In this document: piece after piece, positions 17,064-34,892 of the stretch | How positions within the stretch are numbered: position 1 is the stretch's first letter | Layout of the letters: each line of letters opens with the position of its first letter | NCBI GenBank assembly: GCA_035541455.1 | Contig: DATKNH010000012.1 | Coordinates: forward strand, 1-36,959 | DNA length: 36,959 nucleotides | Direction of reading: 5' to 3' | Source of the DNA: Syntrophorhabdales bacterium | GTDB lineage: Bacteria > Desulfobacterota > Syntrophorhabdia > Syntrophorhabdales > WCHB1-27 | The notes under the pieces: generated by a model | The model's database searches: none | What the model saw: the letters and a program-made list of their open reading frames with translations, nothing else | Told to the model about the DNA's origin: nothing | Program-made: the position numbers and the translations under genes

Positions 17064-18410
17064 ATGGATCACTCAGTCCGTGGCGACTCTGAAATCACCG
17101 ACAAAGTTTCATCGAAGATATACGAGGAAGAGCTCCGCTATGTCTCTCCGGGGCTCCAGGAAGTGGCCCAGCTCTCGCGACTTGTTATCAAAGAAGGCAA
17201 GGGATGCTGGCTCACCGACGTGGATGGCAAGTCATATCTTGACTTGATGGCAGGCGTGGCCGTCTGCAGCCTGGGTCATTCGCACCAGCGATATATTGCC
17301 GCCATAAAGACGCAGTTGGACAAGGTCACGGCTGGCAGTTTCACCACGGAAAACCGGATGAGACTCCTCGGCCTCATCGCTTCACTGACGCCACCGGGGC
17401 TCACCAGAACCCAGCTCTACAGTGGAGGCGCCGAGGCAGTTGAGGCGGCTGTGCGTCTGGCAAAAGCCTGCACGAAGAGCTTCGAGGTGCTCGGCTTCTG
17501 GGGAGGATTTCATGGTAAGACCGGCGGCGTACTGGGTCTCATCGGAGACCCGTTCAAGAAGCACTGGGGGCCACTCCATCCCGGCTTGCACCTCGCGCCT
17601 TACGCTGACTGCTATCGATGTCCCTTTGACATGGCCTATCCCGGATGCGGCATCTTCTGTCTCGATTTCGTCCGAAAGGTGATTGAGAAGGATACGGCAG
17701 GAAGCATTGCTGCGATCCTGGTAGAGCCGATGCAGGGAACTGCCGGCAACGTGATTCCCCCTCCGGAATTTCTTCCCGGTCTGCTTCAGATCGCGCATGA
17801 GAATAATGCCCTTCTGATCGCCGACGAGATGATCACGGGATTCGGCCGCACAGGAAAAATGTTCGGATGCAACTACACGGGCGTGACGCCCGATATCCTG
17901 ACCATAGGAAAGGGTATGGGAAACGGCTTTCCCATCAGTGGGCTGGTCTCCACGGATAAGATCACCGCGAGTCTGCCCTTTGCAAAAGCGAGCTCTTCGT
18001 CGAGCAGTTACGGGGGTAATCCACTGGCCAGCACCGCATCTCTCGCCACCATACAGACTATCGTCGAGGAATCACTCGTTGAAAACTCGCAAAAGGTTGG
18101 AAGCCATCTATTGAAAGAGTTGCAGGGCCTGCAAGAGAAATATGAATTCATCGGTCATGTCCAGGGGCTCGGCCTCATGATCGGCGTTGAACTGGTGAAA
18201 AACAGGAAGACTAAAGAACCGCTCGAGCGGGAGGTGACCAGACAGATCTTCCTCGAGTTACTGAAGAGGGGCATGATAAGCATGAGCTATAAGGCGAACT
18301 TCCGCATTAACCCGCCCCTCATTCTGAAGAAAGAGGAGGCGGACACAGCATTACAGATCCTTGACGATACATTTTCTTTTGTGAAAGAGCATGTGCGGTG
18401 GAAGGGCTAG
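17064..18410 (+). CDS. Class III PLP aminotransferase
   Basis: A 448-residue fold-type I aminotransferase of the acetylornithine/4-aminobutyrate group. It shows SGGAEAVEAAVRLAK (residues 120-134), a cysteine-bearing insert DCYRCPFD...CGIFC common in this subgroup, the cofactor-binding Asp in ADEMITGFGRTG (D254), and the Schiff-base lysine in IGKGMGNGFP (K283). AAGGAGGGCTCG precedes the ATG. In this position, next to inositol synthase and a Gfo/Idh-type dehydrogenase, it could aminate a keto-cyclitol or keto-sugar, although cyclitol aminotransferases known to me are usually of the DegT type. An ordinary amino-acid substrate remains possible. Confidence 0.88.
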   Translation: MDHSVRGDSEITDKVSSKIYEEELRYVSPGLQEVAQLSRLVIKEGKGCWLTDVDGKSYLDLMAGVAVCSLGHSHQRYIAAIKTQLDKVTAGSFTTENRMRLLGLIASLTPPGLTRTQLYSGGAEAVEAAVRLAKACTKSFEVLGFWGGFHGKTGGVLGLIGDPFKKHWGPLHPGLHLAPYADCYRCPFDMAYPGCGIFCLDFVRKVIEKDTAGSIAAILVEPMQGTAGNVIPPPEFLPGLLQIAHENNALLIADEMITGFGRTGKMFGCNYTGVTPDILTIGKGMGNGFPISGLVSTDKITASLPFAKASSSSSSYGGNPLASTASLATIQTIVEESLVENSQKVGSHLLKELQGLQEKYEFIGHVQGLGLMIGVELVKNRKTKEPLEREVTRQIFLELLKRGMISMSYKANFRINPPLILKKEEADTALQILDDTFSFVKEHVRWKG

Positions 18411-18433: not shown

Positions 18434-18579
18434 CAAATCCCAAATCCCAATATCGAAATCCTAAACAATATCTAATGACCAAAATTCAAAGTGAATTCAG
18501 GTTTGGCATCCGTTTGGAACATTTGAAATTAGTAATTTGAGACTGTTTGGGATTTAGATATTCGACGTTGGAATTTGGA
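18434..18579. repeat. Large AT-rich imperfect palindrome
   Basis: Between the aminotransferase and the dehydrogenase, about 145 bases read as a long interrupted inverted repeat. The left arm, rich in CAAATCCCAAATCCCAA words, resembles the reverse complement of the right arm, rich in TTTGGGATTTAG and TTGGAATTTGG, around a short centre near 18492-18512. Pairing is imperfect, roughly seven bases in ten by eye. The composition differs sharply from the GC-rich genes. It looks like a dispersed intergenic repeat element rather than a terminator. Confidence 0.6.
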
Positions 18580-18620
18580 TGATACACATGAAACATAATG
18601 CTCGTGATAGGCGGCAGATC

Positions 18621-19652
18621 ATGCCTAAAGAGGGACGGGAGGCCAGGATTTTTCGCGGGGCGATTGTGGGATTTGGCAACGCTGCTCTCCACGCGCACCT
18701 TCCTGCCTGGCAGCACAGCAAGTATTTCAAAATTGTCGCTGTGGTGGAGCCTGACCCTGAAAGAGCGCGCCTGGCGAGCGGGCTTATTCCGGGAGCATCC
18801 ATCTACGCCGATATGGGACCCGCCATCGCACACGGCGATCTTGATTTTGTGGATATCTGCACACCTTCGTACACTCACGCCGGTCTGGCAGAGAAGGCTT
18901 TAGGTGCGGGCCTGCACGTGCTTTGCGAAAAGCCGCTCGTGACCTCATTCGAAAGCCTCGAGAGGATTGAGGCTGCGAAGCCATCAGGATGTGTCCTCTT
19001 TACCGTGAACAACTGGAAGCACGCACCTATCTGGATCAAGACCGAAGAGATCGTTTCCGAACAGAAACTAGGTCCTATACAATCCATCTCCCTTATCGTG
19101 CTTCGACCGCCCAATTCAGGCGGCGGGATTTCCGACTGGCGCAGACGAGCCGAAACTGCAGGCGGCGGGATCCTGCTGGATCATGGATGGCACCAGCTCT
19201 ATCTCGTCCGTTCGGTCATGACCGCGGTTCCGCTATCCGTCTCCGCAAAAATGGAGTATGCTGGCAGCATTGAAGAGACGGTTGATCTGTCCGTCCGGTT
19301 TCATGCTGCGGAGGCGAGAGTTCACCTCACATGGCGGGCGTCTTCGCGGCAAAACCGGGGAGAAATAACGGGCCCAAACGCCCGCATACTCATCAACGAT
19401 GACCATCTTGTGGCTCTTGCACGAGCATCTGCCGAAGTGAGACATAACTTCCCCGAGCCCCTCTCCGGAGGCTCCCACCACCCTGCGTGGATGGAAAAGG
19501 TGGTTGAAAATTTTCGGACCGAAATCATCGATGAGACGATCCGAGGCACCAACCTGGCGGAGGCCAGATGGTGTGCCCGAGTGATCCATTGCGCTTATCA
19601 GTCCAGCCGGGAAGGATCGCGTGATGTCCGGGTGGATGATTGTGCCCTATAA
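18621..19652 (+). CDS. Gfo/Idh/MocA-family dehydrogenase
   Basis: An NAD(P)-dependent oxidoreductase of about 343 residues. The Rossmann start is AIVGFGNAALHAHLPAW. The family hallmark EKPL is in LHVLCEKPLVTS. GGGILLDHGWHQ carries the conserved Asp/His region before the C-terminal sheet domain. Family members oxidise or reduce sugars and cyclitols, including inositol 2-dehydrogenases. I prefer the ATG at 18621 (AGGCGG seven bases before) over 18579, because the latter lies at the edge of the palindromic repeat. Next to inositol synthase and an aminotransferase, oxidation of a cyclitol to a ketone before amination is a sensible hypothesis. It overlaps the following membrane gene by about 29 bases. 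Confidence 0.88.
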   Translation: MPKEGREARIFRGAIVGFGNAALHAHLPAWQHSKYFKIVAVVEPDPERARLASGLIPGASIYADMGPAIAHGDLDFVDICTPSYTHAGLAEKALGAGLHVLCEKPLVTSFESLERIEAAKPSGCVLFTVNNWKHAPIWIKTEEIVSEQKLGPIQSISLIVLRPPNSGGGISDWRRRAETAGGGILLDHGWHQLYLVRSVMTAVPLSVSAKMEYAGSIEETVDLSVRFHAAEARVHLTWRASSRQNRGEITGPNARILINDDHLVALARASAEVRHNFPEPLSGGSHHPAWMEKVVENFRTEIIDETIRGTNLAEARWCARVIHCAYQSSREGSRDVRVDDCAL

Positions 19653-20661
19653 GAGATTCCACCTCTACGCCCTTATTTGCGGTTGTCTGCTGATCACGCT
19701 TCTGATTTATCGGATCGGGTCCGGCCAGCTGTGGGCCCAGTTGAAGCTTCTGGGATGGGCCCTGGCGCCGCTTATTCTGATTGAAGGCGTTGCGGATCTC
19801 TTTCACACACAAGCCTGGCGCCACTGCCTTTCTGACCCGCACCGGGCGCTTCCTTTTTTTCGTATATTCTGTATCCGCATGGCAGGCTATTCCATCAACT
19901 ATCTTACCCCTACAGCAGGCATGGGGGGAGAAGTGGCGAAGGGAGTTCTCCTTGCGTCGGACCGCACGGGATCGGAAAGCGCAACCGGGATCATCATCGA
20001 CAAGCTTTCCTATGCTTTGGCTCAACTTCTCTTTGTGGTCGGAGGGACGCTCGTGACACTGCCCGGCATGCGTATGCCTTACGGCATCTGGGTGGCGATG
20101 CTTACGGCCACGACGCTGCTGGGCGGGGGCATGCTGATCTTTCTTGTCATGCAGAAGTATGGCAAGCTCGGTGCCTTTTTGCGCTGGTGTGTCATCCATC
20201 GGCTGGGTGGTCGCCGTATGGAAAAGCTCGCTACGCACATAACCGGTGTGGACGATAAGCTTCGGCTCTTTTATCAGAGGCGTCCGGGTGATTTTATCTT
20301 TTCGATAGTCTGGCATATCGCGGGCATGGCATGCGGTATCGTCCAATGTTACTATTTTCTCCGGGTCCTGACCGACCAAGCTTCGTTGGGCCTGGCTGCT
20401 GGTCTCTGGTTTCTGGGAACATGGTTCAGTCTTCTCGGTTTTGCCCTGCCTATTGACCTCGGCGTCATGGAAGCCACCAGGGTTATTGCGTTTGTGATCT
20501 TTGGTCTGGAGTCTTCGCTGGGTCTCACGTACGGGATCACTCTCAGGCTCGAACAGATTTTCTGGGCCGGTGTGGGCCTTCTGATGTATGCGGTGCTGGC
20601 TTTTGAGATGCGGAAGAAGCACATTTCCGATTCCGGACAAAAGGGATATGGTATGACATGA
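19624..20661 (+). CDS. hpnL: HpnL-like integral membrane protein (UPF0104 / LPG-synthase membrane domain)
   Basis: About 345 residues with some seven or eight hydrophobic segments, matching the UPF0104 fold (the membrane part of lysylphosphatidylglycerol synthases). The family pattern YSINYLTPTAGMGGEVAKGVLL lies near residues 89-110, with LPIDLGVMEA...FGL toward the end. HpnL, a hopanoid-locus protein of unknown biochemistry, belongs to this family, and the neighbours support that name. It might flip or export a lipid intermediate. GGAAGGA precedes the ATG at 19624, and an immediately upstream GTG is an alternative. It overlaps the dehydrogenase gene, so the two halves of the locus are physically linked here. 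Confidence 0.75.
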   Translation: MSGWMIVPYKRFHLYALICGCLLITLLIYRIGSGQLWAQLKLLGWALAPLILIEGVADLFHTQAWRHCLSDPHRALPFFRIFCIRMAGYSINYLTPTAGMGGEVAKGVLLASDRTGSESATGIIIDKLSYALAQLLFVVGGTLVTLPGMRMPYGIWVAMLTATTLLGGGMLIFLVMQKYGKLGAFLRWCVIHRLGGRRMEKLATHITGVDDKLRLFYQRRPGDFIFSIVWHIAGMACGIVQCYYFLRVLTDQASLGLAAGLWFLGTWFSLLGFALPIDLGVMEATRVIAFVIFGLESSLGLTYGITLRLEQIFWAGVGLLMYAVLAFEMRKKHISDSGQKGYGMT

Positions 20662-20687
20662 CCCAATGCATTAAGAGGGAGGGGCGT

Positions 20688-22100
20688 ATGGACAGATCCA
20701 CTCAAACCCATTACAAAGAGGGACGGAAAGGTCTCAGGATCGCAGCCATTTGCGGATTAACTCTGGTCTGCCTGCTGTCAACCCTGTGGAAACCGTTGCC
20801 AAGCGTGGCGCAAGAAGGAGATAAACTGGTCCTGAGCGTCGAGCAGGCGATCCGGATGGCTCTCGCCAAGAGCCCCGAACTGGCGGGGATCAGGAGCGAA
20901 ATAGGAGGAGCGCGGAGCGAACTGGAGCAGGTGGATGCTGCCTATTACCCCCAGCTGGAAAGCATTACGCTGGTTGGGCCTGTCAAGGATGCCAACCGGC
21001 CGGTAGTGGTGAATGGGAGGATCACAGACCCTTCGCCTGAAATGAGTATCGGTGTTTACGGCAGCACAGATTTTGCCATGACCCAGCCCCTCTATACATT
21101 CGGAAAGCTCTCCAATAGAAGAGATGCGGCGGTCAAGGGGCTTGCAGCTCGGGAGTTGAAGCAAACACAAAAAGAGAATGAGATAGCACTGAGGGTGAAG
21201 GAACTCTATTATGCGCTTGTTCTGGCACGGGCGGGGGTCGAGGCGGCAACCGAGGCCCTTACCTATTTTGACGAGGCGCGGGCGCGCATGAAGCGGCTTC
21301 TGGACGCGGGCTCACCGAACGTGCTCGAAAGCGATCTCTACAGGATCGATGCGTACGCGGCCAACACGCTGCGCTCACGGGCCGAAGCCGAGAAAGGCTC
21401 TGGCATTGCTTACTTTGCGCTGAAATCGCTCATGCATCTGCCCTCCGATGCCGCATTCGAGCCCGCGGAGAAGATGCTCTCCCTTCAGGAAGGCCGGCTG
21501 GGGGAGCTTGATGCTTACATTGGAAAAGCGCTGGCTGACCGGCCTGAACTGAAGCAGCTCGAACAGGCCGTAGCCGCGCAGCGATCTATGGTTGAAGCGG
21601 CCCGGAGTGACCGCTACCCTTCTTTCTTTGCTGCGCTGGCCGGCTCTGTCGCGGGGGCTCCCGGCCGCGAGACGTTTCATAACGCTTATTTTCCTGATCA
21701 ATACAACCATGCTTATGTAGGAGTCGTGGGCGGGCTGAAATGGCACTTTGATTTCGGGATAGCCAAGGCAAAGATCGAAAAGGAGAAAGCGGAATATGAG
21801 AGGCTGCTTCACGCAAAAGGAACGGGAAGACTCAATATTCCCATAGAAGTCGTCAAATATTACGAAGAAGTGAGAGAATGGAAGGTGGCCGGCGAAGCTT
21901 ACGGAAACGCGGCGACTGCTTCAAGAAAATGGATTGTGGCTGCTCTCACCAATTTCGACATGGGTATAGGCACCGCCGACGATATGCTGCGGGGCATGGA
22001 AAAGTACGGTGAAAACCGGGGCAAATATATCCAGGCTGTCTTTGGCTACAACATGTCTCTGGCGATGCTCGAATACGCCACAGGAGTGAGAAGTTGGTAA
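20688..22100 (+). CDS. TolC-family outer-membrane efflux protein
   Basis: A 470-residue outer-membrane channel protein. A signal peptide (GLRIAAICGLTLVCLLS to about residue 43) is followed by paired coiled-coil repeats of the OEP type, beginning LSVEQAIRMALAKSPELAGIRSEI and repeated in the second half (ADRPELKQLEQAVAAQRSMVEAARSDRYPS). GGGAGGGG just upstream supports the ATG at 20688 over one 30 bases earlier. It lies between the HpnL-like gene and hpnN, so it may serve as the outer-membrane exit for the HpnN transporter. No periplasmic adaptor (MFP) gene is present, so the assembly would differ from classical RND pumps. Confidence 0.9.
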   Translation: MDRSTQTHYKEGRKGLRIAAICGLTLVCLLSTLWKPLPSVAQEGDKLVLSVEQAIRMALAKSPELAGIRSEIGGARSELEQVDAAYYPQLESITLVGPVKDANRPVVVNGRITDPSPEMSIGVYGSTDFAMTQPLYTFGKLSNRRDAAVKGLAARELKQTQKENEIALRVKELYYALVLARAGVEAATEALTYFDEARARMKRLLDAGSPNVLESDLYRIDAYAANTLRSRAEAEKGSGIAYFALKSLMHLPSDAAFEPAEKMLSLQEGRLGELDAYIGKALADRPELKQLEQAVAAQRSMVEAARSDRYPSFFAALAGSVAGAPGRETFHNAYFPDQYNHAYVGVVGGLKWHFDFGIAKAKIEKEKAEYERLLHAKGTGRLNIPIEVVKYYEEVREWKVAGEAYGNAATASRKWIVAALTNFDMGIGTADDMLRGMEKYGENRGKYIQAVFGYNMSLAMLEYATGVRSW

Positions 22101-22255: not shown

Positions 22256-25027
22256 ATGAATTTACTACAGCATGTGCTGAAGAAGATCCTGGAGAGTCAG
22301 ATTTCGCATCCGCGCCTCTTTCTCGCTGGCGCGTTGGTGCTGGCCGGGTTCTCAATCACCTACACAATAATGGACCTTCAGTTCTGGACGAGCCAGAGGG
22401 CTCTCATCTCCCAGGAGAATCGCCTCGTCCAATTGGCAGAGGAAGCCGACCAATTCTCAGACTTTGATACGTTTGTCGTTGCAATTCAGAATCTGAATAC
22501 GCGCCGATCAATCGAATTTCTTCGCGCGCTCGCATCGCGGCTCGAAGCTGATAATAAAAACTATGCTGAGGTCTTCTGGCGCATAAACCCCGAAAGCTTC
22601 AAACCCTGGGCGCTTCTCTATCTGAAGGAGAGGGACCTTTTATCGCTGAGGGACAACCTTCAGGAGCATGAAACCTTTCTGCGCAACCTTGCCCTTTCCC
22701 CGGGGTTAATTACGTTCTTTGACCAGCTCAATAACGAAATGGCGCAGCGAATGGTCGGAGAGCTTTTCACGGGATTCCTCGACAAGGACACAACGCAACG
22801 TGGCAAACCCATGGACCTTCAGTTTCTCATCAGTATACTGCGGGAATTAAAGGCGCGGCTTAACGGAGAGACCGCCTTCACATCACCCTGGGGCTCGTTT
22901 TTCACCAACAGCGGTATGGATGATGCCTCGGAAAAAGGTTATTTCTGGACGGAAGATAAAGGATACCTCCTTCTCTTCGTGACCCCCGGACAGGCAGCGA
23001 AAGGGTTCTCGAGATGGGAGGCTCCCCTTGCCAGGCTCAGAAAGACGATTGCCGAGGTAAAGGTCGATTTTCCCGGAATAGATGTGGGCGTGACAGGTCC
23101 GAAGGCTCTTGGCGAAGACGAAATGAGAGCAGCATTGCACGATATGAGCCTGGCCACGCTCCTCTCTCTTGGCGGTCTGGCAGTGCTTCTCATTACCTTC
23201 TGGCGCGGGATCCGCAGGCCGCTTATAGAAATGGTGGCCCTGCTCACGGCTCTCTCGCTCACCTTCGGCTTCACCACACTTTTCATCGGCCATCTGAATC
23301 TCCTCTCGGTGGTATTTGCGCCGATGCTCCTCGGCTTGGGCATCGATTACGGGGTTCACTGGTTCGCCCGCTTCAGAGAGGAACAGCGATGCAACGGTGC
23401 ATCAAAAGAAGAAGCGCTCAGGACGGCCATGGTAAGGCTTGGCCCGGGAATCCTGCTCGCAGGCTTTACCGCGGCCATCTCGTTCTTTCCCCTTGTGCTC
23501 ACCGGCTTCAAGGGACTGGGAGAACTCGGCCTGATCTGTGCGATTGGCCTGGTCATGGCTACGCTTGCAACAGTCGGCCTGCTGCCTGCGCTTATTGTGT
23601 TGTTTGACAAGGATGAAGGCAGAGATTGGGTTCTCTGCAAACAGCAGGTGCGACCATTTTTGAGGCTTGGGCGTGTGAGCGCCTATCTGCTCATCGTTGT
23701 GGCCGCAATTACAGCTCTTCTCTCCATCTGGGCGGGCCGAAAGGTAGAGTTCGATCTCAACACACTACGTCTTCAATCGAAGAAGGCCGAGTCAGTAATC
23801 TGGGAAACGAGACTCGTTGAGAGTTCGCGCCGCTCAAGCATGTACGGCGTCATTCTCGCCCATTCTCTCGACGAAATCGAAAGAAAAAGCCAGGCCCTTG
23901 AAACGCTGCCAACTGTCCGGGAGGTGCAAAGCGTGTTGGACCTGCTCCCTTCAGACCAGGATCAGAAGATAGGCACCTTGCGACAGATAAGCCCTCTGGT
24001 AACCGGAATCGGTCAGTTCTCCGCTGCAAACCACCCTGTGGATCTGGAGCAGCTAGACCAGGTGCTCGGGAGGATCCGATTCAAAATGCTTGATACGACT
24101 GGCTCGCAATGGGGCGTGAGCAAGCCGCTGCAGACGCAGATGCGAGAGGTGAGGAGGCTTATCGACGATGTCAGAAAGTCGCTGACCGGCACGGACGGTC
24201 TGAAATTGCAGCGTGAACTCAAAGCCTTTGAGAACGACCTGATGAATGACCTGGAAGAAAAGTTCGATGTTCTCCGCAAGGCCGCAGAAGGGAGGCGCAT
24301 GCGTATAGAAGACTTGCCGAAACAGCTTCGGGAACGGTATGTCGGCAAGAACCATCTGTACATCATCCGGGTCTTTCCTGCTCAGAATATCTGGGAGCCG
24401 GATCATCTCAAAACCTTTGTTCGTGACCTCAGGTCCGTGGATCCTGATGCCGTGGGCGATCCGGTCACCCTCAGCGTTTTCACGCAGGCGTTTCGCAATG
24501 CCTGTGTACAGGCGGCAGTTTACTCGGTCATCTTCATCTTCGTTCTTCTGATAGTGACCTTCAGGAGCCTGGTCGCTACGTTGCTTGCCCTTACCCCCCT
24601 TGTCGTGGGGACTGCATGGACGTTTGGCCTGATGTATCTCCTTGGGATAGACCTCAATCTGGCTAATAGTGTCTTCCTGCCGCTCATTTTGGGCGCAGGT
24701 GTCGAGTATGGCATCATCGTTGTTCAGCGCTGGAGGCAGGCAGGCAAAGACTTTTCCGGAGGACCATGCCCGTCGAGCACCGGAATAGGAGTAGTCCTCG
24801 CCGGCCTTTCAACGACGGTTGGCTTTGGCAGCCTTACTATCTCCGAACATCAAGGCGTGCACAGCCTGGGCCTGCTTACCTTCGTCGGCAGCCTGAGCGT
24901 GCTTGCCGCGGCAGTCCTTTTTCTGCCTGCTCTGCTACAGGTCATCCCCGATGGTGTGTTCCGAAAGAGTATTGCGTGGTGTGGTACTAGTCCTGCGGTT
25001 GATTGCAATGCCAAGGAGGAGAACTAG
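22256..25027 (+). CDS. hpnN: Hopanoid-locus RND/MMPL transporter HpnN
   Basis: A 923-residue inner-membrane transporter with the duplicated RND plan. One N-terminal helix (near residues 20-40) is followed by a large periplasmic loop, five or so helices around residues 300-460 containing GLGIDYGVHWFARF, a second periplasmic loop, and a second helical bundle around 765-910 with GAGVEYGIIVVQRW. HpnN is known to move hopanoids to the outer membrane. Flanking TolC-like and HpnM genes agree with this. The start is uncertain because the ATG directly follows a heptamer repeat without a ribosome site. The hpnM start codon follows its stop by two bases. Confidence 0.93.
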   Translation: MNLLQHVLKKILESQISHPRLFLAGALVLAGFSITYTIMDLQFWTSQRALISQENRLVQLAEEADQFSDFDTFVVAIQNLNTRRSIEFLRALASRLEADNKNYAEVFWRINPESFKPWALLYLKERDLLSLRDNLQEHETFLRNLALSPGLITFFDQLNNEMAQRMVGELFTGFLDKDTTQRGKPMDLQFLISILRELKARLNGETAFTSPWGSFFTNSGMDDASEKGYFWTEDKGYLLLFVTPGQAAKGFSRWEAPLARLRKTIAEVKVDFPGIDVGVTGPKALGEDEMRAALHDMSLATLLSLGGLAVLLITFWRGIRRPLIEMVALLTALSLTFGFTTLFIGHLNLLSVVFAPMLLGLGIDYGVHWFARFREEQRCNGASKEEALRTAMVRLGPGILLAGFTAAISFFPLVLTGFKGLGELGLICAIGLVMATLATVGLLPALIVLFDKDEGRDWVLCKQQVRPFLRLGRVSAYLLIVVAAITALLSIWAGRKVEFDLNTLRLQSKKAESVIWETRLVESSRRSSMYGVILAHSLDEIERKSQALETLPTVREVQSVLDLLPSDQDQKIGTLRQISPLVTGIGQFSAANHPVDLEQLDQVLGRIRFKMLDTTGSQWGVSKPLQTQMREVRRLIDDVRKSLTGTDGLKLQRELKAFENDLMNDLEEKFDVLRKAAEGRRMRIEDLPKQLRERYVGKNHLYIIRVFPAQNIWEPDHLKTFVRDLRSVDPDAVGDPVTLSVFTQAFRNACVQAAVYSVIFIFVLLIVTFRSLVATLLALTPLVVGTAWTFGLMYLLGIDLNLANSVFLPLILGAGVEYGIIVVQRWRQAGKDFSGGPCPSSTGIGVVLAGLSTTVGFGSLTISEHQGVHSLGLLTFVGSLSVLAAAVLFLPALLQVIPDGVFRKSIAWCGTSPAVDCNAKEEN

Positions 25028-25029
25028 AC

Positions 25030-25644
25030 GTGACTCTTAAAACAAGAATTATCATGATCCTCATCGCACCGATACTCGTGGTCTCTTTCCAACAGGGCTT
25101 CTGTCAGGACCCCGGCCCAACCGACACCGTGCGAAAGATGCTGGATGAGGTGATCTCGATCCAGACGGATAAAAACACACAGGGGCAGGAATACAGAGAA
25201 GCGCGACGAACAGCGATCAAGAAGGTCATAGTCGGCAATTTCAATTTCGAGGACATGGCGACGCAGGCCCTGGGGGCGTACTGGGGCGGTCTGAGCAGCG
25301 CGAACAGATCTGAGTTCAAACGATTATTTCAGGATCTTTTTCTTGATTCCTACTCGCGGTTGGTGCTCGATTTTCTGAAAAAAGAAAAGGTAGAGTATCT
25401 TACTCAGGATGCACAGAAGGACGAGGCGAAGGTGAGGACTCGCATATACAGGATGAATGAGGCGATCCCTGTTGACTACTCGTTGCTTCTGGCGAACGGA
25501 ACGTGGCTCGTTCGTGACGTGAGAATCGACGGGGTCAGCATCGTTGAGAACTATCGGAAGTCGTTCACGAGGCTGATAAAGCAGGAGTCTTTTGACGCTC
25601 TTCTGAAAAAGATGCGCCTGCAGCAGCAAGCTGTTGAGAAATAG
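25030..25644 (+). CDS. hpnM: HpnM, MlaC/Ttg2D-like periplasmic lipid-binding protein
   Basis: A 204-residue periplasmic protein of the MlaC (toluene tolerance Ttg2D) family. A signal peptide (IIMILIAPILVVSFQQGFCQ) precedes the domain, recognised by VRKMLDEVISIQ, then FNFEDMATQALGAYWGGLSSANRSEFKRLFQ and the late DGVSIVENYRKSF. MlaC proteins carry lipids between membranes, and HpnM would carry hopanoids or related lipids for HpnN. I place the start at the GTG at 25030, which has AAGGAGG ten bases upstream and avoids overlapping hpnN. An ATG at 25003 inside hpnN is less likely. Confidence 0.92.
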   Translation: MTLKTRIIMILIAPILVVSFQQGFCQDPGPTDTVRKMLDEVISIQTDKNTQGQEYREARRTAIKKVIVGNFNFEDMATQALGAYWGGLSSANRSEFKRLFQDLFLDSYSRLVLDFLKKEKVEYLTQDAQKDEAKVRTRIYRMNEAIPVDYSLLLANGTWLVRDVRIDGVSIVENYRKSFTRLIKQESFDALLKKMRLQQQAVEK

Positions 25645-25685: not shown

Positions 25686-26849
25686 ATGGGAATCTTCGCT
25701 GAGGTCGTCGAAGCTGCTCTCTCACTCATAATCTTGCTGGGATCTCTTTACGCACTCTTTTCCCTTTTCTGCATCGTGGAGTTTTTTCGGCAGTCGAAGG
25801 TTGCGCAGGCAGAACCCGAGCCTGCTTACCCGCCGCTTTCTGTCTTGAAGCCCATGAAGGGTGTCGATCCCGAGTGGCGCGACAACGTCGCGAGTTTTGT
25901 CACTCAGGACTATCCGGAATACGAGGTTCTTCTGGGTATTAACGATGCGCGGGATGAAGGGCTGACACTGGCGCGGGAGATGGCCGGATCATACGCACCG
26001 AAAGTGCGCGTCGTTATCCATGCGAGCAATCTCGGGAGCAATCCAAAAGTTTCAAATCTCCAGGGCCTTATCGCTGAAGCGCGCCATCTCCTGCTGCTCA
26101 TAAGCGATAGCGATATACGGGTTGGGCGCGGCTATCTGAAGCAGGTCGTACGTGAATACCTTGCAACGGAAAGGGTGGGCATCGTGACGTGCCTTTCCAA
26201 GATCACTCGTGCTCACACTGTGGGGGCAGCTCTTGAGTCCCTCACGACAACGGCTGATTTCATCCCCTCGGTCCTCACCGCGAGGAGGCTCGAGGGCGTG
26301 ACGTTCGCTCTCGGTCCTTCTATATTGCTCTCGAAGCAGGCCTTGGAGGAGATAGGAGGCTTGGCGGCATTTGCCGACCACCTGGCCGAGGACTATATGA
26401 TCGGCAACTGCCTGTGGAAAAGGAACTACAGGAACATACTCTCCAGTCATCTGATAGAGTACGTCGTGGGCAGAATGAGTGTCCGTGCGTACCTCGTGCA
26501 TCAGCTCAGATGGGCAAGAACCTACAGAGCGTGCAGGCCCGTCGGCTTTTTGGGGTATGGTATCACTCAAATTTTTCCGTTCGCTCTTCTTTTCCTTGCC
26601 CTGCACGGCGCTTCTGTAGTCTCTCTGTCGGCTATTGCCGTGGTTCTCGCCTTAAGATATGGTACTGCTCTCATGGTTGCCGGGATGGCCGGCTATAACC
26701 GTCAGTGGTTCCGATGGCTCTGGCTGCTGCCCGCAAAAGATATTCTCAGTTTCGGCATATGGCTATGGTGCTTCCTGGGTTCGCACATTTTCTGGAGGGG
26801 CCATCATTACAAGCTGCTGAAGGGCGGGCTGATGAAAAAAATGGATTGA
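25686..26849 (+). CDS. hpnI: HpnI, hopanoid glycosyltransferase (GT2, ceramide-glucosyltransferase-like)
   Basis: A 387-residue membrane-bound glycosyltransferase. An N-terminal helix precedes the GT2 domain: LSVLKPMKGVDPEWRDNVASF near residue 51, the metal-binding DSD at 141-143, the acceptor-site ED in LAEDYMIG near 237, and QLRWARTYR, the (Q/R)xxRW motif near 272. C-terminal helices follow from about 285. HpnI adds N-acetylglucosamine to bacteriohopanetetrol, the first step toward glucosaminyl and cyclitol-ether hopanoids. The usual next enzyme, the HpnK deacetylase, is not in the window. The ribosome site is weak. It is the last gene before a break containing a decayed minus-strand gene. 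Confidence 0.92.
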   Translation: MGIFAEVVEAALSLIILLGSLYALFSLFCIVEFFRQSKVAQAEPEPAYPPLSVLKPMKGVDPEWRDNVASFVTQDYPEYEVLLGINDARDEGLTLAREMAGSYAPKVRVVIHASNLGSNPKVSNLQGLIAEARHLLLLISDSDIRVGRGYLKQVVREYLATERVGIVTCLSKITRAHTVGAALESLTTTADFIPSVLTARRLEGVTFALGPSILLSKQALEEIGGLAAFADHLAEDYMIGNCLWKRNYRNILSSHLIEYVVGRMSVRAYLVHQLRWARTYRACRPVGFLGYGITQIFPFALLFLALHGASVVSLSAIAVVLALRYGTALMVAGMAGYNRQWFRWLWLLPAKDILSFGIWLWCFLGSHIFWRGHHYKLLKGGLMKKMD

Positions 26850-27261: not shown

Positions 27262-27289
27262 TTGACTTAAACAGTTTTTGTTCTTATCA
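27262..27289 (+). promoter_or_regulatory. Candidate internal sigma-70 promoter
   Basis: TTGACT (27262-27267), a 16-base spacer and TATCAT (27284-27289) lie about 40 bases before the GTG at 27330. It would start a second transcription unit for the downstream fusion gene and the core hopanoid genes, and it argues against a gene start at 27195 or 27249. Confidence 0.45.
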
Positions 27290-27329
27290 TTGTTCCGTTC
27301 CCGATTTTCATCATAGCGGGCGTATCGGC

Positions 27330-28547
27330 GTGACAGGAACCGCACTCATACTTGCGCCAAACGATGGAGGGCTGCAGCAGGTCTTCGGCCTGCCCGTGGT
27401 CCGGAGGCTTGTGCTGCTTATGCGGGGGGCCGGGATCGAAACAGTGCAGATCGTGAGCCGCAACGAATCAATACTCGCCACCCCTTCGGGCTTGATCTCG
27501 CCGGATGTGCGTCATGTTGTACGTGACGCGGAGGAGTTAGACGACGTTGTCAGCAAGATAATCGTCGGCCGGCATGAGAGGGTGCTGGTGGCGAGGGCTG
27601 ACCTCGTCGTGGATAGAAGATCGCTCTCTCTGCTTGTCCAGGCCGCAGAAAGGAGTGCGGATGAGGAGTGCATCTACGTTTTGAGGTCCGATGAAGGGTC
27701 CCATCTGGAAGGGATCTACGCGGCAGGCAACGATGCGCTTGCTTCCGTTGCACACGCCATCTGGTCGTCCGAGACATCTGATTCAGCAATCCTAGAAAAA
27801 GCGGAGTGGTTAGCTGCAGCGCCTGGTCTGCCTTGCATCGCGGGCGGGGAGCACACCTCAGTGAGGAGAGCAGAGGAGCGATTGATTGCCGCTCTTCCGC
27901 TGGCAACAGCAGACAGGGACGGTTTCATGGCCCGCCACCTGGATCGCCACTTTTCCCGCCGCATCAGTCGCAAACTCGCCCGCACAGGGGTGACACCCAA
28001 TCAGATCACCCTTTTCAACGTTGCAATCGGTTTTGCAGGCGCGTTCTTTCTTGCAAGAGGCAGCTACTGGTCGCAACTCGGCGGCTCGCTCCTCTTCCTG
28101 CTTTGCGTGGTACTCGACGGCGTGGACGGCGAAGTGGCCCGGTTAAAACTGAAGGAGTCTGTTTTTGGTCACTATTTAGATGTCATTACCGACAACCTGG
28201 TTCACGTTGCTATCTTTGTTGGCATAGCCGTCGGGCTCTGCTACCAGACCGGGAATAGGGGCTATCTTTATGCACTCGGATTCCTTCTTGGCGGCTTTGG
28301 CCTCTGTGCGTGTGTTGTCCGCAGGACCTTAAACCGTTGTCCCGACAGGGCACGGTCGGGAACGACGAGCAAACTTATCGGTCTCCTGGCAAATCGTGAT
28401 TTTGCCTACCTTGTTGTCGCATTCGCTATAGTCGGCCATCTAAACTGGTTCTTGCTGGCCGCCGCAGCCGGGACCTATGTCTTTGCCGCAACCCTGTGGG
28501 TTCTTGATAAGAGCAGTGCCGCCCAACCAGTGTCGCCTTGCCCTTGA
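27330..28547 (+). CDS. Nucleotidyltransferase-like / CDP-alcohol phosphatidyltransferase fusion
   Basis: The C-terminal half carries the complete CDP-alcohol phosphatidyltransferase signature DG-x2-AR-x8-G-x3-D-x3-D (around nucleotides 28128-28196), with several membrane helices. The N-terminal half starts TALILAPNDGGLQQVFGLPV and resembles a nucleotidyltransferase fold, but lacks the GxG...R...PK nucleotide signature and seems degenerate. The plan recalls the bifunctional inositol-1-phosphate cytidylyltransferase/di-inositol-phosphate phosphate synthase of some archaea and thermophiles. An active stand-alone nucleotidyltransferase (15543-16259) could supply the missing activity. Product candidates are a phosphatidylinositol phosphate-type lipid or a phosphodiester-linked cyclitol. 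The start at GTG 27330 is chosen from the promoter position. The frame is open upstream to 27195. Confidence 0.82.
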   Translation: MTGTALILAPNDGGLQQVFGLPVVRRLVLLMRGAGIETVQIVSRNESILATPSGLISPDVRHVVRDAEELDDVVSKIIVGRHERVLVARADLVVDRRSLSLLVQAAERSADEECIYVLRSDEGSHLEGIYAAGNDALASVAHAIWSSETSDSAILEKAEWLAAAPGLPCIAGGEHTSVRRAEERLIAALPLATADRDGFMARHLDRHFSRRISRKLARTGVTPNQITLFNVAIGFAGAFFLARGSYWSQLGGSLLFLLCVVLDGVDGEVARLKLKESVFGHYLDVITDNLVHVAIFVGIAVGLCYQTGNRGYLYALGFLLGGFGLCACVVRRTLNRCPDRARSGTTSKLIGLLANRDFAYLVVAFAIVGHLNWFLLAAAAGTYVFAATLWVLDKSSAAQPVSPCP

Positions 28548-28659: not shown

Positions 28660-30081
28660 GTGCGGACGCTATTGCTGAATCCTCCCTCATGCAGGGGTTT
28701 TGACGGCGGCGCTGGTTCACGTTATCAGGCTCGCCGTGAGGTCAAGTCCTTCTGGTATCCCACGTGGCTGGCCTATGCTGCCGGGCTCACAGAGGGAAGC
28801 CGGCTTCTCGATGCCTCTGCCGAGGACATGGATGCAGCCCAGGTCGTGCGTGAGGCTCGCGGCTACGAGCTCATCATAATCCACACGAGCACCCCGACTT
28901 TTACAACTGACGCAGGGATCGCGGAAAAGCTTAAGAGTCACTATCCCGGTATTGTTGTTGGGTTTGTCGGACCGCACGTCACTGCCCTCCCCGAGGTTGC
29001 TCTCCAGACTTCAAGAGCCATCGATTTCGTCGCACTTGGCGAATTCGATTATACCGTGGCTGAGATTGCCGAGGGGCGTCCCCTCAGCGAAGTCCGTGGT
29101 GTAGCCTTTCGCGCAAACGGGACGGTCCGCCGGACGACTTCGAGGCCGGCCATTGAGGACCTTGATGCACTTCCCTTTGTGACCAGTGTTTACGCACGGG
29201 ACCTTAACCCCGAGCATTACTTTATAGGCTATTTGCAGCATCCGTATGTCTCGCTGTATGCTGGCCGGGGCTGTCGGTCGCGATGTACGTTCTGCCTGTG
29301 GCCTCAGACAATATCTGGCCACACCTACCGTGTGAGAAGCCCTGAGAACGTGTGCGAAGAAGTGGCACTGGCGAAGCAGCTCCTGCCGAACGTCAGAGAG
29401 TTTTTTTTCGATGATGACACTTTTACCGACAATCCTCATCTTGATGAAATTGCGCAAAGACTGGGTCGTCTCAATATCACGTGGTCCTGTAATGCCCGCG
29501 CTGCTGTTTCCAGGGAAACCCTTGCGTTACTCAGGGAAAATGGCTTACGCCTTCTTGTGGTGGGCTTTGAGTCCGGCAATCAAAAAATCCTAAATGGTAT
29601 CAGGAAGGGAATCCGTGTTGAGCAGGAATGGGAATTCGTAAAGGCGGCAAAAGAACTCGGCATCCTTATACACGGAACCTTCATCCTGGGATTGCCGGGC
29701 GAGACAGCCGGGACAATCGAAGAGACTATCAGGTTTGCGAAAGAGATAGATCCGTACAGTGTTCAAGTTTCTTTGGCAGCTCCTTACCCCGGCACCGAGC
29801 TTTACGAGCAGGCCAAGCGAAGCGGCTGGCTCGCGCAGGACGAAACGTGTCTCGTGCGGGAAGGCATCCAGAATGCGGTCCTTACTTATGAAGGCCTTGA
29901 TGCGGAGGCGATCTACGGTGCGGTGGAGCGCTTCTATCGCTCCTTCTACCTGCGCCCTGGTCCCGTATTGCGCATTTTGCGGGAGATGCTGCACGACAGG
30001 AGAGTCTTTGCCAGGAGAATGAGAGAAGGCAAGGAATTTTTTTCATTTATGGCCAGGCGAAAAGAGGTTGTCAAATGCTGA
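28660..30081 (+). CDS. hpnJ: HpnJ, B12-binding-type radical SAM enzyme of cyclitol-ether hopanoids
   Basis: A 473-residue protein with an N-terminal cobalamin-binding-like domain (LIIIHTSTPTF near residue 71) and a radical SAM core with CRSRCTFC (C205, C209, C212). The N-terminal GFDGGAGSRYQARR...KSFWYPTW is a strong hallmark of HpnJ, which rearranges the glucosamine of glucosaminyl-bacteriohopanetetrol into the cyclopentane cyclitol ether. The start codon is GTG, with no clear ribosome site. It overlaps the squalene-hopene cyclase gene by seven bases. Its presence predicts a cyclitol-ether hopanoid, provided an HpnK deacetylase is encoded elsewhere. Confidence 0.93.
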   Translation: MRTLLLNPPSCRGFDGGAGSRYQARREVKSFWYPTWLAYAAGLTEGSRLLDASAEDMDAAQVVREARGYELIIIHTSTPTFTTDAGIAEKLKSHYPGIVVGFVGPHVTALPEVALQTSRAIDFVALGEFDYTVAEIAEGRPLSEVRGVAFRANGTVRRTTSRPAIEDLDALPFVTSVYARDLNPEHYFIGYLQHPYVSLYAGRGCRSRCTFCLWPQTISGHTYRVRSPENVCEEVALAKQLLPNVREFFFDDDTFTDNPHLDEIAQRLGRLNITWSCNARAAVSRETLALLRENGLRLLVVGFESGNQKILNGIRKGIRVEQEWEFVKAAKELGILIHGTFILGLPGETAGTIEETIRFAKEIDPYSVQVSLAAPYPGTELYEQAKRSGWLAQDETCLVREGIQNAVLTYEGLDAEAIYGAVERFYRSFYLRPGPVLRILREMLHDRRVFARRMREGKEFFSFMARRKEVVKC

Positions 30082-32039
30082 TGAGCAGCGTATCAGGTTC
30101 CCTGCCCGTTTCTCGCACCGGCGATCTGCTTGACCGGGTCACACGGGCGATAGGGAGAACCCACGCCTACTATCGTAGCGAGCAGCATCCCTCCGGTTAC
30201 TGGTGGTACGAGCTGGAATCAAACGTGACGATTACAGCAGAATACCTGATGCTCATGCACTTCGCCGGCGTCAAAGACACGGAGAAGGATAGAAAAATGG
30301 CCCGCTATCTGCTGCGAAAGCAGAGAGCTGACGGCACATGGGCGATACATTACGGCGGGAAAGGAGATTTGAGCACAACGGTCGAAGCATATTTCGCACT
30401 CAAGCTTGCCGGATTCTCCGCTGACCATCCTGCCTTGAGAGAGGCGCAGCAATTCATTCTTGCACAAGGTGGCGCCGAGCGTTCAAGGGTCTTCACGAAG
30501 ATCTTTCTCGCGCTTTTCGGCCAGATGGACTGGGAGGCCACGCCCTCGGTACCTGTCGAAATAATGCTTCTGCCTCAATGGTCTCCCCTCAATATCTACG
30601 ATATATCTGCATGGGCAAGAGCCACGGTTGTGCCTCTCTCGATACTTCTCGACCTCAGGCCGGTGAAGCCACTTCCGGAACAGATCGGGATCCGCGAGCT
30701 ATACAGAAATCCCTCTGACCGCCGTCCGCCTCTCACCACCGGGCAGACGCCATTCTTGTCCTGGAAAAAATTCTTTCTCGCCCTCGATGGCCTGATCAAG
30801 GCGGTCGTAGCGAGCCGCGTGAGGCCGCTCAGGAAACGGGCTCTGCACAAGGCTGAAACCTGGGTGATCGAGCATCAGGAGGAGAGCGGCGACTGGCTGG
30901 GCATACAGCCCGCTATGGTTAATTCCCTGCTGGCGCTCATCAGTCTTGGCCGCGAAGCTGGTAACGGACGGTCCAATCATGCTGTGCGGAAAGGCTTTGA
31001 AGCCCTCAAGAGGTTTACTATCGAGACTGAGGATGAACTTCTGCTTCAGTCCTGCGTGTCGCCGGTCTGGGATACAGCTCTGACTGGACTAGCTTTGCTT
31101 GACTCCGGTATGGGCAGGTGTGACCCGGTGCTCACAAACGCGTGCACGTGGCTTTCCTCGAAACAGTCATTCAGAAAAGGCGACTGGAGCGTAAAGAGGC
31201 CAAGCCTGGAGCCGGGGGGGTGGGCCTTCGAATTCGAAAATAGCTGGCAACCAGATGTTGACGACACAGCGGTGGTCATGATGTTTCTGAATCGTTGCGG
31301 GGAGGGAGGCATTGCTGCAATTCAGGAGCTCAAGCTCGGCCTGCGCTGGCTGCTCGGCATGCAGGGGAAAGACGGCGGCTGGGGAGCTTTCGATGCCGAC
31401 AACAACACGGAGATTGCCAACCAGGTACCGTTTGCAGACCTGGAGGCAATGCTTGATCCCAGTACCGCTGACGTCACGGGGAGAGCACTGAAGCTGCTTG
31501 GCATGCTCGGCTATAAACCCCACGACAACGAGGTGCGTCGCGCGCTTGCATTTATCAGAAAGACGCAAGAGGAGGACGGGTTGTGGTGGGGAAGATGGGG
31601 CGTGAACTATGCTTACGGGACGTGGTCCGTGCTGGAGGGGCTTCGCTCCATAGGGGAAGAGATGGACAAACCTTACGTGAGAAAGGCAGTTGCCACCCTA
31701 AAGCACCACCAGAACGAAGACGGCGGGTGGGGGGAGTGCTGTGAGTCTTACGAGGACCCGAGCCTGCGGCTGCAGGGAAAGAGTACGCCATCGCAAACGG
31801 CATGGGTGATCATGGCGCTGCTTGCAGCGGGAGAAGGAACGTCAGAAGAGGTGGCTCACGGGGTATCTTTCCTGCTCGAAAGACAGAAGACGGACGGAAC
31901 ATGGGATGAGCCCGAATACACCGCCACAGGGTTTCCGAAGTATTTCATGATAAATTACCACAACTACAGGAACTGCTTTCCTCTTATGGCACTCGGCAAG
32001 TTCGTGTCGTCCCTACATGGTGAGAAAGGCATACAGTGA
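30075..32039 (+). CDS. shc: Squalene-hopene cyclase
   Basis: The 654-residue enzyme cyclises squalene to hopene, the founding step of hopanoid synthesis, at the inner-membrane surface. The protonating motif DVDDTAVV lies near residue 394, as in characterised cyclases. QW-type repeats are visible at QRADGTWAIHYGG (near 90), KDGGWGAFDADNN (near 434), EEDGLWWGRWGVNY (near 498) and NEDGGWGECCESY (near 546). Length is normal. The ATG overlaps hpnJ and its stop overlaps the hpnA GTG start, so the three are coupled. Squalene-forming genes (hpnCDE) are not in the window. Confidence 0.97.
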   Translation: MLMSSVSGSLPVSRTGDLLDRVTRAIGRTHAYYRSEQHPSGYWWYELESNVTITAEYLMLMHFAGVKDTEKDRKMARYLLRKQRADGTWAIHYGGKGDLSTTVEAYFALKLAGFSADHPALREAQQFILAQGGAERSRVFTKIFLALFGQMDWEATPSVPVEIMLLPQWSPLNIYDISAWARATVVPLSILLDLRPVKPLPEQIGIRELYRNPSDRRPPLTTGQTPFLSWKKFFLALDGLIKAVVASRVRPLRKRALHKAETWVIEHQEESGDWLGIQPAMVNSLLALISLGREAGNGRSNHAVRKGFEALKRFTIETEDELLLQSCVSPVWDTALTGLALLDSGMGRCDPVLTNACTWLSSKQSFRKGDWSVKRPSLEPGGWAFEFENSWQPDVDDTAVVMMFLNRCGEGGIAAIQELKLGLRWLLGMQGKDGGWGAFDADNNTEIANQVPFADLEAMLDPSTADVTGRALKLLGMLGYKPHDNEVRRALAFIRKTQEEDGLWWGRWGVNYAYGTWSVLEGLRSIGEEMDKPYVRKAVATLKHHQNEDGGWGECCESYEDPSLRLQGKSTPSQTAWVIMALLAAGEGTSEEVAHGVSFLLERQKTDGTWDEPEYTATGFPKYFMINYHNYRNCFPLMALGKFVSSLHGEKGIQ

Positions 32040-33058
32040 AGGCTCTCGTGACAGGTGCCACCGGGTTCGTGGGATTCCACGTGGCGAAGGCCTTGCAGGA
32101 AAAAGGTGTCGAAGTCCGGGCACTCGTGAGGGCAAGCAGCGATACTTCCGACCTTGCACCACTCGGTGTGGAGTTAGTCACGGGGGACATAAGAGACTAC
32201 GATTCCGTGCGCAGGGCGCTTCAAGGCTGCGGAGAGTTGTATCATGTGGCCGCTGATTACAGGCTCTGGGTGCCTGACCCGGAGGCCATGTACGAAACAA
32301 ACGTCCAAGGCACCGTGAACGTGATGCAGGCCGCTCTTGAAGCGGGCACGGGAAAGGTTGTCTACACGAGTTCAGCAGGGACGCTCGTCCCTAAACGGAG
32401 TCGTGGCAAGTGCAACGAGGAAACACCAGTTTGTCTCTCCGACATGGTGGGCCATTACAAAAGGTCTAAGTTCCTCGCTGAGAGGCACGTCTACGAGTTC
32501 ATCAGCAGGGGTCTGCCCATTGTGATTGTCAACCCTACCACTCCGATCGGGCCCATGGACAGAAAGCCCACACCCACCGGCAAGGTGATTGTAGACTTTC
32601 TCAGTGGCAGGATGCCGGCGTTCATAGACACAGGCCTGAACTTTGTCGACGTTGAGGAAGTAGGGCTGGGGCACTGGCTCGCGTCGCAGTACGGGAAATC
32701 CGGCGAGCACTATATCCTGGGTAACCGCAATATGAGTCTGGGTGAATTCCTGGCGATACTGGGCCGAATAGGCGAGCGCAAGCCTCCGCGTGTAAAACTC
32801 CCTTACGTGCCGGTACTTCTCGCTGCTTATGTTGACGAAGCTGTCTCCACGTGGATAAGGCACACACAGCCGACAATCCCTCTTACAGGCGTTAAGATGG
32901 CCAAGAGCTACATGTATTTCGACTGCTCAAAGGCTGTCCACAGTCTGGGAGTGCCGCAGATGCCGGTGGAACGCGCGATGCAGAAATCGATCGACTGGTA
33001 TCTCGAAAGAGGCTACGTGAGGAATCGGCCTTCGTCGGGAGGTCGGCATGTCTGCTAG
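32036..33058 (+). CDS. hpnA: HpnA, hopanoid-associated NAD-dependent sugar epimerase/dehydratase-like protein
   Basis: A 340-residue short-chain dehydrogenase/reductase of the extended type. The NAD loop GATGFVG is at residues 7-13, the catalytic YxxxK at Y141-K145, the Ser/Thr of TSSAGT near 111, and NPTTPIGPMDRKPTPTGK near residue 170 is characteristic of HpnA. HpnA occurs in hopanoid loci, but its substrate is not settled. The GTG start overlaps the cyclase stop, and it overlaps the DUF116 gene by 11 bases. Confidence 0.94.
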   Translation: MKALVTGATGFVGFHVAKALQEKGVEVRALVRASSDTSDLAPLGVELVTGDIRDYDSVRRALQGCGELYHVAADYRLWVPDPEAMYETNVQGTVNVMQAALEAGTGKVVYTSSAGTLVPKRSRGKCNEETPVCLSDMVGHYKRSKFLAERHVYEFISRGLPIVIVNPTTPIGPMDRKPTPTGKVIVDFLSGRMPAFIDTGLNFVDVEEVGLGHWLASQYGKSGEHYILGNRNMSLGEFLAILGRIGERKPPRVKLPYVPVLLAAYVDEAVSTWIRHTQPTIPLTGVKMAKSYMYFDCSKAVHSLGVPQMPVERAMQKSIDWYLERGYVRNRPSSGGRHVC

Positions 33059-33887: not shown

Positions 33888-34892
33888 ATGCGCTTTCCAG
33901 CTGGTCTTTATAAATCACTTGTATCCTGCACCATCAAGAACAGCCTCAGAGGGATCAAGAGGTTTCCTCTGGTACTGATGCTGGAGCCCACGCACCGCTG
34001 CAACCTTGCGTGCGCAGGATGTGACAGGATCAGGCTTAATGCCGAGACTCATGCTCCCGATCTCTCCCTGGATGAATGCATTGACGCCGCTGTCCGGTCA
34101 GGTGCCCCGGTGGTCACTGTCACCGGAGGCGAACCACTGCTATACGGACAACTGAGAGCCCTTATAGCAGAACTTCTCCGGTTGAAGCGGTACGTGTACC
34201 TTTGCACGAACGGTCTCCTGGCCGGCTCTCTCCTGCGGCAACTTACCCCGCATCCCGGCCTGAGCCTCAATTTCCATTTCGACGGTATGGAAGAAACGCA
34301 CGATCGTGTGACCGGGCAGAAGGGGACATTCAGAACGGCTATTGAAGCTATCAAGAGGGCGAAAGAAGAAGGCTTCAGGGTGTGCACCAATACATCCGTA
34401 TATAAATACACCGGCATGGAGGAACTGGAACAACTCTTTGACTTGCTCACCCGGATCGGCGTGGATGGAATCTTGATTTCTCCGGCGTTCAGCTACCAGA
34501 GCGTAAAAGAGGAAATATTCCTGAGCAGGGAAGAGGCCACCGAAAGATTCAGGGCCATGGAATACATGTTTCCCAGGTATCCATTCATGGGTACGCCGAT
34601 GTACATTGATTTTTTGCAAGGCAAGAAGAGGCTGCTTTGCACGCCCTGGGGCAATCCGACACGGAACCCTCTTGGCTGGAAGTCGCCGTGCTATCTGGTG
34701 ACCGACACGTATTACGAGTCCTTCGCGGAATTGATGGCGAAAACTGACTGGGACACCTACGAGTCGGGCCGAGACTCGAGGTGCCGGGACTGCATGGTCC
34801 ACAGCGGCTATGAAGCGAGCGTCATGCGGCAAGCGTTTTCCAATCCGTACGAGCTCCTCAAGCTCCTCCTCTGGAATCTCGGGGGCACTTGA
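33888..34892 (+). CDS. hpnH: HpnH, radical SAM adenosylhopane synthase
   Basis: A 334-residue radical SAM enzyme that joins the 5'-deoxyadenosyl radical to hopene, making adenosylhopane, the start of the C35 side chain. The cluster motif CNLACAGC (C38, C42, C45) follows MLEPTHR. TVTGGEPLLY near 85 and LNFHFDGMEETHD near 130 are conserved radical SAM/HpnH elements. Further cysteines occur late (LLCTPWGNPTRNP, SPCYLVTD, SRCRDCMVHSGYE), the last resembling an auxiliary-site region. The ribosome site is weak. It overlaps the next gene by one base (TGATG). Confidence 0.94.
   Translation: MRFPAGLYKSLVSCTIKNSLRGIKRFPLVLMLEPTHRCNLACAGCDRIRLNAETHAPDLSLDECIDAAVRSGAPVVTVTGGEPLLYGQLRALIAELLRLKRYVYLCTNGLLAGSLLRQLTPHPGLSLNFHFDGMEETHDRVTGQKGTFRTAIEAIKRAKEEGFRVCTNTSVYKYTGMEELEQLFDLLTRIGVDGILISPAFSYQSVKEEIFLSREEATERFRAMEYMFPRYPFMGTPMYIDFLQGKKRLLCTPWGNPTRNPLGWKSPCYLVTDTYYESFAELMAKTDWDTYESGRDSRCRDCMVHSGYEASVMRQAFSNPYELLKLLLWNLGGT

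Follow-up and report, generated by a model that had tools for sequence, protein, structure and literature searches.

A CDP-alcohol phosphotransferase family with a degenerate nucleotidyltransferase domain is associated with bacterial hopanoid genes

Results

A hopanoid gene cluster preceded by an ino1 cassette

The window, i.e. the whole stretch of 36,959 nucleotides analysed here (contig DATKNH010000012.1 of a Syntrophorhabdales bacterium), was found by profile searches to hold a hopanoid gene cluster preceded by an ino1/nucleotidyltransferase (NTase) cassette (Table 1). The hopanoid genes run in the order HpnL, a TolC-family protein, HpnN, HpnM, HpnI, a CDP-alcohol phosphotransferase (CDP-AP), HpnJ, squalene-hopene cyclase (SHC), HpnA, a DUF116 protein and an HpnH-type radical SAM protein. 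On their 5' side lie ino1, a HAD phosphatase, a stand-alone NTase, an ATP-grasp protein, a class III aminotransferase and a Gfo/Idh dehydrogenase. The closest named relatives are MAGs of the Syntrophobacterales/Syntrophorhabdales type. A housekeeping ino1 adjoins a canonical PIP synthase (L004) on contig C20 of the same genome, hence the ino1 of the window is an extra, cluster-borne copy. An Rfam search of the window returned no RNA, and no phosphonate genes were recognised in it. A reading of the ATP-grasp protein as an inositol-phosphate kinase was tried, and the protein gave no match in the PDB at E values up to 0.05. Relatives also have the DUF116 gene (33048-33875) in this place, with HpnA on one side and the HpnH-type gene on the other, and an HpnG-like PNP_UDP_1 phosphorylase at the end of the cluster (35776-36510, minus strand) is conserved near HpnH in relatives.

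Table 1. Features of the window discussed in the text.
Feature	Position	Strand	Basis
ino1, inositol-1-phosphate synthase, second copy, cluster-borne	13591..14781	+	profile match
HAD-family phosphatase, cassette	14851..15546	+	profile match
Stand-alone intact NTase, IPCT/MurU-like, proposed trans partner	15543..16259	+	profiles, structure, residues
ATP-grasp (RimK-like) protein, cassette	16256..17053	+	profile match
Class III aminotransferase, cassette	17064..18410	+	profile match
Gfo/Idh/MocA-type dehydrogenase, cassette	18579..19652	+	profile match
HpnL-like flippase-domain membrane protein	19621..20661	+	TIGR03476, 5.7e-26
TolC-family outer-membrane protein	20658..22100	+	profile match
HpnN hopanoid RND transporter	22256..25027	+	TIGR03480, 5.5e-158
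HpnM	25003..25644	+	TIGR03481, 1.4e-18
HpnI glycosyltransferase, directly upstream of CDP-AP	25686..26849	+	TIGR03472, 2.7e-91
Pseudo-NTase/CDP-AP fusion, 405 aa, GTG start	27330..28547	+	PF01066, model, orthologs
N-terminal degenerate NTase domain, about residues 1-193	27330..27908	+	AlphaFold/Foldseek; lacks GxGxR..PK loop
C-terminal class I CDP-AP membrane domain, about residues 199-397	27924..28520	+	PF01066, model
CDP-AP signature DGVDGEVARLKLKESVFGHYLDVITD	28116..28193	+	aspartates and key glycines invariant in alignment A3
RDFA, fourth residue Ala at the second Arg position of PIP-synthase RxxR	28395..28406	+	alignment
HpnJ radical SAM enzyme, directly downstream of CDP-AP	28660..30081	+	TIGR03471, 693 bits, cut-off 577.6
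Squalene-hopene cyclase (SHC)	30075..32039	+	TIGR01507, 783 bits, cut-off 431.1
HpnA	32036..33058	+	TIGR03466, 443 bits, cut-off 367.65
HpnH-type radical SAM protein	33888..34892	+	Radical_SAM and DUF3463

A complete CDP-AP domain joined to a degenerate NTase domain

The open reading frame of the fusion protein spans 27195-28547 on the plus strand. Its orthologs start at the residue matching the GTG at 27330, so the start proposed in a preliminary description of this DNA is right. That description had called the C-terminal signature perfect, and indeed DGVDGEVARx8GxxxDxxxD is complete and belongs to class I CDP-alcohol phosphotransferases, DG(x)2AR(x)8G(x)3D(x)3D with an upstream Asp; the domain matches Pfam PF01066 (E=8.9e-10, 39.6 bits against a cut-off of 22). 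The protein has about six transmembrane helices. The best structural matches of its AlphaFold model (pLDDT 93.1, pTM 0.89) found with Foldseek are AF2299 of Archaeoglobus fulgidus (E=5e-12) and IPCT-DIPPS (9e-11).

The N-terminal half has the NTase (GT-A-like) fold, with Foldseek matches to KdsB, RmlA and GlmU besides AF2299 and 4MND. In Pfam it reaches only NTP_transf_3 below threshold (16.8 bits against a cut-off of 27). The GxGxR...PK nucleotide-binding loop is absent from it, as the preliminary description had noticed. Of an NTase domain it still has the first strand, the helix 'GxPLxxRxxL' and the closing AExxL, and R26 is invariant in an alignment of 49 homologs.

A scan of genome contigs with the window protein as single query returned no relatives; with an alignment as query it returned 367 relatives. 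The 80 loci obtained are spread over Desulfobacterota, Binatota, Rokubacteria, Nitrospirota, Nitrospinota, Elusimicrobiota, Alphaproteobacteria, Chloroflexota and others. Of about 80 homologs, drawn from many phyla, nearly all lack the loop. Among the CDP-AP frames of 80 loci only three Nitrospira proteins keep it, and one further loop-intact protein occurs in genome G143. AF2299, compared using a sequence that matches the PDB letter for letter, likewise lacks the loop in its N-domain. We rejected a recent relic or pseudogene, since the orthologs examined have the same loss and the reading frame is intact. As judged from these alignments, the N-domain appears to be an ancient NTase pseudoenzyme whose loss of the loop is not local.

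The acceptor site differs from that of PIP synthases

Two arginines of PIP synthases, R153 and R191 in the R. salmoninarum enzyme, have been proposed to bind inositol phosphate (PMC4634129). We located them, via their 38-residue spacing and the PDB chain sequence, as the second Arg of ERxER and as the QR in TM6. The R153 column of the alignment holds A, I, S or T in 49/49 fusion homologs, and at the TM6 (R191) position no conserved basic residue was found across the same 49 proteins. L004 retains both arginines, as do further PIP synthases of relatives, and Arg occupies both positions in AF2299 (TRDFR, LRR). The loss of both makes an inositol-phosphate acceptor unlikely, and hence also the synthesis of PIP or di-myo-inositol phosphate. 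We rejected the latter product on this ground, and for the same reason the fusion protein is unlikely to be an IPCT/DIPPS or a PIP synthase; as regards substrate, the split of a bifunctional inositol-phosphate enzyme put forward in the preliminary description is thus not supported. Furthermore, the N-terminal cytidylyltransferase loop of a bifunctional IPCT/DIPPS is gone, and the IPCT/DIPPS model NF041135 scores 79 bits on the CDP-AP part, far below its cut-off of 580. A phosphatidylglycerophosphate synthase was also rejected, because PgsA-type sequences separate at 100/100 in two trees. The tree neighbours of the family are AF2299, DIPPS and PIP synthases.

A stand-alone NTase is a very probable partner

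The stand-alone NTase, whose presence near ino1 was rightly pointed out in the preliminary description, retains G9, G11, R13, P22-K23-P24, D105 and D215/D217, all invariant in 11 homologs. The NCBIfam models Arch_glmU (59.5 bits), IPCT/DIPPS (57.7) and MurU (46.7) all match below cut-off in a near tie, and the leading structural matches are MurU and then the T. maritima IPCT.

We scored co-occurrence in 395 genomes of the phylum, counting the fusion protein at E<=1e-20. It is present in 65 of these and the NTase in 29, all 29 of which carry both (p=3e-26, a value that overstates independence because the genomes are related). The two genes lie on one contig within 15 kb in 21 of the 29. HAD, ATP-grasp, aminotransferase and Gfo/Idh genes accompany the NTase: of 81 loci, 30 contain three or more of the five cassette genes, and 27/29 NTase genomes carry the cassette aminotransferase with an identity of 50% or higher. 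This aminotransferase may be an HpnO-type enzyme within the cassette. An ordinary HpnO that simply follows SHC was rejected, since at the same identity threshold the gene is nearly confined to cassette genomes; 44 SHC genomes are without both the aminotransferase and the NTase.

In Nitrospira, three contigs (L110, L121 and L137) have a separate NTase followed by a CDP-AP with the dead domain; three others (L120:9929-11365, L140:9356-10786 and L142:9356-10777) encode NTase and CDP-AP as one protein, which has lost most of the dead domain. The fused NTase is 82-89% identical to the separate NTase of the relatives, the fusions have at least two different junctions, and they are nested inside the degenerate clade. 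Hence the intact Nitrospira fusions are later joinings of a separate NTase gene, and a direct fusion made with most of the dead domain lost implies that NTase and transferase probably act together. Together with the 29/29 co-occurrence, this makes the stand-alone NTase very probably the partner of the fusion protein. The preliminary description had proposed a split into an active partner and a relic or regulatory domain; the partnership is thus supported, but a recent split is not, as most members of the family have the dead domain and the intact fusions arose within the degenerate clade.

Four genomes of the same order (G016, G017, G018 and G024) have the transferase in hpn clusters and no ortholog of the window NTase, so this NTase is not obligatory. 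At L186 and sister loci, PEP mutase, phosphonopyruvate decarboxylase, an NTase and aminoethylphosphonate transaminase precede the transferase. The transferase thus resembles a module that can be supplied by more than one kind of activating enzyme. The phosphonate cassette (L186:1281-8416, also L185, L188 and L189) closes with the pseudo-NTase CDP-AP together with an HpnL-like protein, and the genomes with these four cassettes have SHC.

The family follows squalene-hopene cyclase

Hopanoids are bacterial analogues of sterols and serve as geological biomarkers. Scored by TIGR01507, SHC is present in 69 of the 395 genomes of the phylum overall. It was found in 38/42 genomes with a strong match to the fusion protein compared with 2/23 with a weak match, the divide (about 1e-28) having been set after inspection of the list. 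The strong matches with no SHC detected are in G014, G080, G286 and G386, some of which are incomplete genomes. Strong matches occur in 16 families, 14 of them with SHC. In other groups, SHC was found in 48 of 49 genomes holding loci, 47 of them above the curated cut-off; these genomes had been picked blind to their genome-wide SHC status. Among 100 Elusimicrobiota genomes SHC occurs in seven, including all five with strong matches (p=2.8e-7), and two genomes with weak matches are not among the carriers. Kinship among genomes inflates the p-values for SHC; the pattern nonetheless recurs in distant phyla.

The transferase is also directly linked to hpn genes in many loci, as it is in the window between HpnI and HpnJ. 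By both co-occurrence with SHC and location in hpn clusters it is a hopanoid-associated gene. The family is nearly restricted to hopanoid-making bacteria of about ten phyla, and this is the strongest association of the gene; the preliminary description had not made the connection.

Discussion

The two-domain architecture is already known from AF2299 (PDB 4O6M/4O6N/4Q7C), the best match to the fusion protein in both sequence and structure. The shared plan is a cytosolic NTase-like domain without the GxGxR..PK loop followed by a CDP-AP of six transmembrane helices. AF2299 uses CDP-glycerol (PMC4634129); it differs in its arginines at both inositol-phosphate positions and in being archaeal, with no hopanoid context. 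The archaeal bifunctional IPCT-DIPPS (PDB 4MND, NF041135) has the same domain order and CDP-AP core, but its N-domain is catalytically intact whereas that of the window protein is dead and the PIP-synthase-type acceptor residues are lost. In Bacteroides vulgatus and Prevotella, an alternative cluster that brings together ino1, NTase, CDP-AP, a HAD hydrolase and a lysylphosphatidylglycerol-synthase-like protein has been proposed to make inositol lipids through CDP-inositol, a pathway that is itself unconfirmed (PMC9246714); the window adds the ATP-grasp, aminotransferase and Gfo/Idh genes and a full hopanoid cluster. CpgD of Caulobacter, which makes CDP-glycerate for a sphingolipid (PMC12275187), is a stand-alone IPCT-like cytidylyltransferase activating a small membrane-lipid headgroup, like the role proposed here for the window NTase. 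CMP-activated 2-aminoethylphosphonate is used in PntC phosphonyl tailoring pathways (PMC6697681); homologs of the window CDP-AP occur in such cassettes, although the window itself has no recognised phosphonate genes.

We think there is about an even chance that the fusion protein is a headgroup transferase placing a CDP-activated polar group on a hopanoid. It would be a membrane CDP-alcohol phosphotransferase of the AF2299/IPCT-DIPPS/PIP-synthase branch, predicted to be active, while the cluster's stand-alone NTase, acting in trans, would activate a small polar group with CDP. The membrane domain would then move the phospho-headgroup from the CDP carrier to a phosphate-free alcohol, most likely a hydroxyl of bacteriohopanepolyol. 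The product would be a phosphodiester-linked hopanoid, for which proteins of the HpnL/HpnN type could act as flippases or exporters. Whereas fold, motif losses, co-occurrence and gene fusion are computational findings, we infer this reaction, its acceptor and the headgroup; our guess as to the identity of the headgroup here is that it probably derives from inositol phosphate via the dedicated ino1 and is perhaps further oxidised (Gfo/Idh) and aminated (aminotransferase). In other genomes, members of the transferase family stand beside an aminoethylphosphonate pathway instead. Three to four additional transmembrane helices are usual in known CDP-APs whose acceptor is a lipid (PMC4634129), and the approximately six helices of the fusion protein count against a lipid acceptor such as a hopanoid. 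We found no phosphate-linked hopanoid in the largely open-access literature searched. The wider proposition, to which we give slightly less than even weight, is that about ten phyla make undescribed phosphodiester- or phosphonate-linked hopanoids by a Kennedy-like route, in which a free cytidylyltransferase activates the headgroup and the pseudo-NTase/CDP-AP transfers it to bacteriohopanepolyol.

Much of the cassette could also belong to a Kennedy-type route to an inositol phospholipid, in which the NTase would make CDP-inositol and the fusion protein would move phosphoinositol onto diacylglycerol, as proposed for Bacteroides vulgatus. The ino1, NTase, HAD, CDP-AP and flippase-like genes are parts of that predicted alternative cluster (PMC9246714), the window has its own second ino1, and the absence of the phosphate-binding arginines is consistent with a neutral acceptor. 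We nevertheless regard this route as unlikely, as it leaves unexplained the near-confinement to SHC genomes and the position between HpnI and HpnJ, and the genome already has an ino1 and a canonical PIP synthase (L004). Both arginines are likewise missing from eukaryotic PI synthases (PMC4634129), so that a eukaryote-like enzyme might be considered, with CDP-diacylglycerol as donor, inositol or amino-inositol freed by the HAD phosphatase as acceptor and the NTase serving another step; such a phosphatase is present in the cassette and some carriers lack the window-type NTase. This seems quite improbable, since the NTase-CDP-AP fusions and the 29/29 co-occurrence indicate a CDP-activated small donor, and the hopanoid association is not accounted for. 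Least credible, and in our view very improbable indeed, is a split IPCT/DIPPS whose NTase would form CDP-inositol for the CDP-AP to join with inositol-1-phosphate into the solute di-myo-inositol phosphate. AF2299 and IPCT-DIPPS are the closest solved relatives and the cluster holds ino1 and an IPCT-like NTase, but the acceptor arginines that housekeeping PIP synthases of relatives and AF2299 retain are absent from all 49 homologs aligned, and linkage to hopanoid and flippase genes is ill-suited to a soluble osmolyte.

The tie of the family to hopanoids was not found in this largely open-access literature, where hopanoids and CDP-alcohol phosphatidyltransferases appear together only in general lipid reviews. 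If a transferase family that follows SHC across phyla is indeed a headgroup transferase, it would add a missing headgroup step to hopanoid biosynthesis and imply phosphorus-containing hopanoids that may go unnoticed in routine hopanoid analyses.

As to the dead domain, we infer that it probably supports the membrane domain structurally and may also serve the working enzyme as a docking site. A pairing with the active NTase resembling that of GMPPA with GMPPB, by which the CDP-alcohol would be channelled to the membrane site, would be compatible with the headgroup-transferase reading, and we advance it as a doubtful possibility. It would fit the retention of the dead domain over deep time, with R26 invariant and the AExxL end conserved, and the encoding of the partner NTase close by; GMPPA/GMPPB complexes are also among the structural neighbours of the stand-alone NTase. 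Against it, the three Nitrospira fusions shed most of the dead domain once the active NTase was joined directly, a loss that also fits a plain structural role. The family offers a clean case of an NTase pseudoenzyme kept for very long beside a living counterpart, in which natural gene fusions reveal a possible replacement for the dead domain.

Some loci show further arrangements of the gene. Radical SAM genes adjoin the CDP-AP in L197 and in L068, which belongs to the cultured carrier Desulfoferrobacter suflitae DRH4, and an 800-aa protein (P0001, L039:2446-4848) is a radical SAM/pseudo-NTase/CDP-AP fusion. Two paralogous pseudo-NTase CDP-APs (L197:2983-4179 and 11501-12781) lie in one hopanoid cluster of genome G065, and three Elusimicrobiota genomes have two CDP-AP copies each.
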